A DNA stretch of 64,000 nucleotides from positions 30,000,472 through 30,064,471 of the forward strand of contig NC_089276.1 of NCBI RefSeq assembly GCF_963678975.1, given 5' to 3'. The position numbers were made by a program, and so were the translations under genes. The stretch is from Dysidea avara (Eukaryota; Porifera; Demospongiae; Dictyoceratida; Dysideidae). Positions 10,751 through 25,815 of the stretch are shown here, piece by piece (position 1 is the first letter of the stretch; every line of letters begins with the position of its first letter). The notes under the pieces are model-generated. The model had not been told where the DNA came from and did no database searches. It worked only from the letters and a program-made list of their open reading frames with translations.

Positions 10751-10921
10751 TTATGATAAATTAGTAATAGTTGTATTTAACATAGTGACAATTTCACTGA
10801 ATGTTGGTCTCTTCTCTGGTTCATAGAGCCAACACTTGCACATGATCTCATTGTACACTTCCTTAGGAGTACCCTCTGGTGCTTCCATCCTGTGACCTTG
10901 TTCCACAAACTCTCGGGCTTG
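10751..10921 (-). CDS. Gene A exon 11: pseudokinase C-terminal end and stop
   Basis: 57 codons including TAA, reading [19 protein letters not shown] and [21 protein letters not shown]..xPxxRPTF is kinase subdomain XI. The protein ends soon after the fold, with no C-terminal extension. Confidence 0.86.
   Translation of the reverse strand, partial: QAREFVEQGHRMEAPEGTPKEVYNEIMCKCWLYEPEKRPTFSEIVTMLNTTITNLS

Positions 10922-25815: not shown

Follow-up and report, generated by a model that had tools for sequence, protein, structure and literature searches.

The locus described here raises the question of whether one gene of the sponge Dysidea avara can encode a Ser/Thr kinase (STK), two SH2 domains and a tyrosine pseudokinase in a single chain, or whether the parts belong to separate genes. 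The window is the whole stretch of DNA that was analysed, 64,000 nucleotides of contig C5 (C5:30000472-30064471), and profile searches were run across the assembly of 550.8 Mb in 108 contigs. The gene in question, gene A, had been proposed as an 11-exon model, and all of its borders, joins and reading frame were reproduced. The 11 exons lie on the minus strand between 10751 and 25815, each with GT..AG borders, and when joined they give 2829 nt, or 942 codons and a stop, in an unbroken frame. A search of the window with gene A identified two additional copies, genes B and C, which were modelled with 11 kb of flanking sequence added (Table 1). The first seven exons of gene C were found in flanking loci L039, L040, and L011, and the whole gene encodes 946 aa.

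Table 1. Positions in the window of gene A and of its paralogues B and C.
Feature	Position	Strand	Content
Gene A exon 1	24901..25815	-	Entire TKL-like Ser/Thr kinase domain, aa 1-305; GT donor at end, phase 0
Gene A exon 2	21979..22028	-	Bridging, encodes [16 protein letters not shown]; phase in 0, out 2
Gene A exon 3	21820..21873	-	Bridging; last is the split Trp codon (TG/G across the junction) of SH2-1
Gene A exon 4	20761..20868	-	Start of SH2-1, phosphotyrosine-binding arginine R364 (FVR)
Gene A exon 5	17863..17956	-	Middle of SH2-1
Gene A exon 6	16826..16960	-	Last part of SH2-1
Gene A exon 7	16393..16707	-	Linker, basic/acidic, with tyrosines (DDYVQVI)
Gene A exon 8	15745..15930	-	Start of SH2-2, phosphotyrosine-binding arginine R588
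Gene A exon 9	14092..14781	-	End of SH2-2 and bulk of FES-like pseudokinase (K709 and HRD D801 kept; DFG changed to G820-F-S)
Gene A exon 10	12083..12193	-	C-lobe of pseudokinase
Gene A exon 11	10751..10921	-	End of pseudokinase C-lobe, stop codon
Gene B	31613..57750	-	Whole paralogue, 941 aa, 11 exons, phases as gene A
Gene B exons 1-6	57750-56836, 47877-47828, 46618-46553, 44481-44365, 44282-44189, 41746-41615	-	
Gene B exons 7-11	40021-39719, 38543-38364, 37173-36496, 35475-35365, 31792-31613	-	
Gene C, 3' part in window	60908..64000	-	Exon 8 (crosses window end), then 63579-62902, 62146-62036, 61087-60908

The domains that had been recognised in gene A from motifs, including the tyrosine pseudokinase, were recovered by Pfam and PDB matches in agreement. 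Pfam was run on three separate protein pieces. Exon 1 matched Pkinase (2.1e-37, aa 25-299), exons 4-6 matched SH2 (5.5e-10), and exons 8-11 matched SH2 (1.3e-7) and PK_Tyr_Ser-Thr (4.8e-74). The best PDB matches of the N-terminal kinase are CTR1, Roco4, and TNNI3K, which we take to be TKL-type kinases by classification, and its catalytic residues are K49, D152 (HRD), and D178 (DMG). With exons 2-6 joined, SH2-1 is closest to Vav1 (5.5e-14), and p85 and VAV2 are the next PDB matches. SH2-2 and the tyrosine kinase (TK) fold align with human FES from end to end in one alignment, the top PDB match (282 bits, E 7e-83). The three top PDB matches of this half are all FES, and the best ABL1 SH2-kinase chain reaches approximately 209 bits. 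The second kinase has KISGFS at the position of KISDFG in FES, and the DFG aspartate is missing. In the exon 7 linker, the tyrosine motif is replaced by NIYEPM in gene B and NVYEPV in gene C.

The introns of gene A and the sequence around it contain other elements. A frame with integrase zinc-binding and integrase core domains (window 18736-20082, plus strand) is a retroelement piece that lies in intron 4 on the opposite strand. Successive open frames with ALS2CR8, MULE/ZSWIM RNaseH-like, and SWIM domains occupy window 1841-4108 on the plus strand; this is a MULE-like transposase gene, or the remains of one, downstream of gene A. Intron 3 holds a TG repeat of about 600 bases (window ~21180-21790), and in another copy, U5, a CA-rich repeat was found in the intron preceding the equivalent SH2-1 exon.

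Genes A, B, and C have 11 exons each and identical entry phases (0,0,2,2,2,0,0,0,0,0,0). Two more units of the array on C5 were modelled, and both are open throughout. U10 has 904 aa and 11 exons with the phases of gene A, and U5 has 905 aa and 12 exons, one of which is an additional in-frame bridging exon. Two kinase stretches and two SH2 stretches were identified in U10 by Pfam. The order STK-SH2-SH2-pseudoTK is thus repeated in five modelled units (A, B, C, U5, and U10), and the SH2 arginines are kept in all five. The SH2-1 of U10 (aa 338-422) is also above the Pfam cut-offs for DUF7063 and DUF7145, and these two families may be related to SH2.

The array covers C5 29.57-30.08 Mb, or about 0.5 Mb. 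At least 16 FES-like kinase exons and at least 13 STK exons are present, and all of them are on the minus strand. Among the matches listed, 13 of the 16 array gaps hold exactly one STK, three hold none, and none holds two. This pairing, together with the order in the five models, favors the single STK-SH2-SH2-pseudoTK protein of the original prediction. The same alternation would appear without a fusion protein if each unit consisted of two adjacent genes, a TKL-like kinase and a downstream SH2-SH2-pseudokinase gene, that were duplicated as a pair. Block duplication would give the same pairing and the same covarying distances, with exon phases inherited from the ancestor. That reading, which is weakened by the evidence below, is considered unlikely.

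The SH2 domains also follow the STKs of the array. Among the matches listed, an SH2 was found downstream on the same strand for 13 of 13 array STKs (within 36 kb) versus 0 of 116 other scored STKs (within 60 kb). SH2 domains that are cut by introns can escape the profile search. The SH2 exons of gene A itself are absent from the list, so its STK-SH2 distance of 35 kb is the distance to the SH2 of a neighbor, U13. The contrast between array and other STKs is strong, but it is not a census, because it comes from the best 129 of 902 STK candidates. The best 137 of 856 STK candidates were also scored, and for SH2 and TK the best 150 of 173 and the best 150 of 614 candidates, respectively. Distances among the STKs and among the TKs are correlated across 12 units (Mantel r 0.61; 2 of 20000 permutations gave a value as high). 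The array STKs form one group (support 0.886) in a tree of 29 of the 31 STKs, L014 and L025 having been lost at trimming. Both the covarying distances and the single STK group are expected whether each unit is one gene or two.

Several units fit two adjacent genes more readily. Neither an STK nor SH2-1 was found in the ~21 kb upstream of U13, and for an SH2-TK copy at C5:29.26 Mb no STK was found in the 10 kb upstream. Such copies are what a free-standing SH2-TK gene would look like. In all, no STK was found for three of the 16 listed units, and U1, U8, and U13 look partial. In U7 (C5 29793298) and U9 (C5 29852317), the two halves have different relatives. Their STKs fall in the group of U4, U5, U6, and U11 (support 0.976) and their pseudokinases in the group of U1 and U2 (support 1.000). 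This conflict between trees is read here as a swap of halves between units, but the two halves could also be independent genes. The pseudokinase exons of U8 (C5 29831877) and U10 (C5 29909617) are nearly identical, and an STK was not found for U8. This likeness is a recent partial duplication or conversion.

The first evidence that had been offered for a single protein was the match of phases at all junctions. The phases do match, but such a match is cheap by chance, a point that counts in favor of two genes. Under a loose splice rule, an open and phase-matched two-exon bridge from STK to SH2-1 was obtained in 30/30 Markov-1 random sequences for each of three gaps. When the split Trp codon was also required, random bridges were still obtained in 21/30, 26/30, and 10/30 for the three gaps. 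The phase match was therefore dropped as proof of fusion, and the bridge of gene A carries no weight by itself, since random sequence gives bridges this readily. A strict splice rule (polypyrimidine tract, GTRAG) missed the bridges of A and C and gave chains for B only. It was dropped as a test because it discards those two bridges, and its result counts against them. The GT donor at the end of the STK was dropped as well, as STKs outside the array have it too (29 of 30 loci as read here). Among the loci listed, most TKL-like STKs are a whole-kinase open frame ending at a GT donor. This family is very large in the genome, with 902 first-look candidates, of which the best 129 were scored. In the 1.5 kb downstream of STKs outside the array, a common coding exon was not recognised at 19 loci. 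In the two-gene reading, the STK exon could stand by itself, for read-through past its end meets a stop after 14 codons and leaves the kinase complete.

The bridging exons themselves supply better evidence. Exons 2 and 3 of genes B and C are conserved at the expected places (blastn E 0.011 and 5e-7), and apart from a few short blocks the introns are mostly unalignable. One further conserved block (blastn E 0.001) falls outside the model and counts against it. The differences in exon length between B and C (50/53 and 66/63) are divisible by three, which argues against two genes. So does the lack of an obvious beginning for a downstream gene. Bridging exon 2 is immediately preceded by an in-frame stop in A, B, C, and U5, and across all five units no start codon occupies a common position in the bridging exons. 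A point against one gene is that U10 carries an ATG, in frame, two codons upstream of its bridging exon. In U5, the first bridging exon is only 146 bases past the STK exon, a short distance for two separate genes. The conservation between B and C does not extend to amino-acid constraint, as dN/dS over the 38 codons of their bridging exons is 1.20. No blastn match of the gene A bridge to B or C was found. It is assigned by its QQ..K start, as in exon 2 of B and C, and its PW end. The case for one gene thus depends on the conservation of the bridging exons between B and C and on the repeated pairing of STK and TK. On this basis a single gene per array unit appears likely, and the claim of one STK-SH2-SH2-pseudoTK protein is retained in that form, without the phase argument.

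The two kinase domains of the array have had different fates. Lys, HRD, and D[L/M]G are kept in all 12 of the array STKs read, with U2 left out. At least 18 FES-like kinase exons are listed on C5, 16 in the array and two on the plus strand at 29.26 and 29.42 Mb, and among these 18 none has an intact DFG. The DFG aspartate is lost in three (A, B, and C, which have GFS or GFG), HRD is changed to HRN in nine, and the beta3 lysine is changed to glutamine in three. In total, 15 of the 18 listed exons lack the Lys, the HRD Asp, or the DFG Asp, a loss of residues by which they are classed as pseudokinases.

It is quite improbable, though worth weighing, that the fusion is real and the FES-like domain is still a tyrosine kinase or a nucleotide binder. 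A canonical DFG is not indispensable for activity in divergent kinases. The beta3 Lys and HRD Asp are retained in the second kinase of A, B, and C, and in three of the 18 listed exons (29.26 Mb, 29.42 Mb, and U2) the Lys, Asp, and Asp are all kept and only the DFG glycine is altered. The dN/dS of the domain is also far below 1. A working enzyme is harder to reconcile with the absence of the DFG aspartate from A, B, and C and with the loss of different residues in different units. It is also at odds with the FES-like pair elsewhere in the genome, which retains every motif. These two exons are on contig C11 and have [20 protein letters not shown] and DFGMSRE, so that the catalytic motifs are complete. 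One of them, the TK at C11:6828170, has an SH2 exon and F-BAR exons within the 20 kb upstream of it. The FCH/F-BAR match of the C11 gene in Pfam is 7.6e-9, for a peptide joined by eye. The genome therefore has a canonical-looking FES apart from the family of disabled kinases.

The domains of genes A, B, and C appear to be maintained. Among the three, dN/dS is 0.12-0.14 for the STK; the SH2 domains give 0.15-0.30 and the pseudokinase 0.25-0.32 (Nei-Gojobori, with several values saturated). The STK, SH2 domains, and pseudokinase of these three genes are under purifying selection. Such values, 0.12-0.32 over four domains, would not be expected if the locus were an artefact of the assembly or a set of pseudogenes, that is, decayed or mis-joined pieces with no working product. 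Transposable-element sequence in intron 4 of gene A and elsewhere in the window could be cited for an artefact, as could the partial appearance of U1, U8, and U13. The five full models are open with 0 stops and 0 frameshifts, however, and the structure is repeated across ~0.5 Mb of a 42-Mb contig. An artefact is accordingly very improbable.

Other clusters were observed in the same searches. SH2 matches in long open frames are clustered at C13 16.66-17.59 Mb, C12 22.83-22.98 Mb, C8 18.8 Mb, and C9 19.1-20.8 Mb. In most of the clusters the frames encode about 280 to 430 aa, and several on C13 and C12 also match the TK query. These are likely intron-poor SH2-kinase gene clusters. On C10 at 17.6-17.9 Mb, partial SH2 matches (profile positions 3 up to 44-51) stand in a row on one strand, and this row is another tandem array.

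Taken with its domains, a unit of the array C5 29.57-30.08 Mb is probably one gene for a TKL-like STK with a built-in phosphotyrosine reader and a pseudokinase derived from FES, to judge from the sequence. In such a gene, one transcript would span the STK, both SH2 domains, and the pseudokinase. The SH2 domains could dock the protein onto tyrosine-phosphorylated receptors or scaffolds, and docking could concentrate or release the Ser/Thr kinase, which would be the output. The dead FES-like kinase may serve as a regulatory clamp or as a binding scaffold for SH2-2 and not as an enzyme. A tyrosine-phosphorylation signal would in this way be converted directly to Ser/Thr phosphorylation within one molecule. 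In FES, the SH2 packs onto the N-lobe of the kinase and supports activity. If this type of SH2-kinase contact is kept, the pseudokinase could sense phosphotyrosine binding and relay it to the STK. As to history, it appears that the F-BAR half of a FES-like gene was lost and that an STK and a Vav-like SH2 were acquired. The unit would then have multiplied in tandem as the tyrosine kinase decayed in several ways.

If transcripts confirm the model, an animal lineage has wired phosphotyrosine reading directly to a Ser/Thr output in one polypeptide. In doing so it would have added a TKL-like kinase and a VAV-like SH2 to an SH2-kinase module of FES type and then multiplied the combination. The array also provides a ready-made set of units whose Ser/Thr kinase is intact and whose tyrosine kinase has been inactivated by three or more routes, so the purpose of the retained pseudokinase is open to comparative test. 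In plant tandem kinase proteins, a decayed kinase domain has been proposed as a bait or sensor. By analogy, the array might be a lineage-specific signalling or innate-immune repertoire of phosphotyrosine-gated Ser/Thr kinases, with the decayed FES-like domain as bait or sensor and with halves exchanged between units (cf. U7 and U9). This suggestion is a doubtful one. If it were true, exchanged halves would give new input-output pairs.

The combination STK-SH2-SH2-pseudoTK had been put forward as belonging to no described family, and no description of such proteins was found in the open-licence literature. The search covered that literature, with animal protein databases outside its scope, so the architecture may already exist as unnamed gene predictions. 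In public contigs, 23 viral_contigs and 25 genome_contigs stretches matched a pattern from the pseudokinase exon, and none was confirmed. A sponge-specific Src family is described in a study of the holozoan tyrosine kinome, and FES is not mentioned in the portion of its text seen (PMC8662651). Counts of SH2 proteins for Physarum, Dictyostelium, and Acanthamoeba are given in the accessible part of another study (PMC4758236). By the tests made here, the gene family belongs to none of FES/FER, JAK, and SYK.

The JAK domain order is FERM, SH2, pseudokinase, and TK. Gene A is like JAK in having a kinase, a pseudokinase, and SH2 in one chain. It differs in having a TKL-like active kinase at the N-terminus, in its two SH2 domains, and in that FERM was not found. 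JAK was ruled out by this order, which is opposite to its own as had been anticipated, and none of the best 60 PDB matches to the C-terminal half of gene A is JAK. SYK and ZAP-70 have the order SH2-SH2-TK, and gene A shares with them two SH2 domains preceding a tyrosine-kinase fold but has an additional N-terminal STK. They were ruled out because the TK is best matched by FES, with neither SYK nor ZAP-70 among the best 60 PDB matches, and because SH2-1 is nearest to VAV/p85, with ZAP-70/SYK far weaker.

To our knowledge, plant tandem kinase-pseudokinase proteins have no SH2 domain. Immune proteins of this kind, such as wheat WTK1/Yr15, resemble the array genes in the fusion of an active kinase to a pseudokinase, as described in the part of the source seen (PMC6170490). 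The kinase families are different, and an immune role for the array genes is a guess. Dictyostelium Shk1-5 are TKL-group kinases with an SH2, and Shk1 depends on its SH2 to localize to the plasma membrane, according to the available portion of that report (PMC1420674). Compared by description only, the SHK proteins and the gene A model share a kinase with an SH2 C-terminal to it, and the best PDB matches of the gene A kinase point to the TKL group. The array genes add a second SH2 and a FES-like pseudokinase.

The likeness that had been drawn to FES/FER was right for the C-terminal half of gene A, in which an SH2 directly precedes a FES-type TK. FES is the best match there, and a FES-like gene with F-BAR is present elsewhere in the genome. 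No F-BAR was found by Pfam in gene A or U10, and the array gene has an STK and a second SH2 where FES/FER has F-BAR. The catalytic motifs are not intact as they are in FES/FER: A, B, and C have no DFG, and many units lack the HRD or the Lys.
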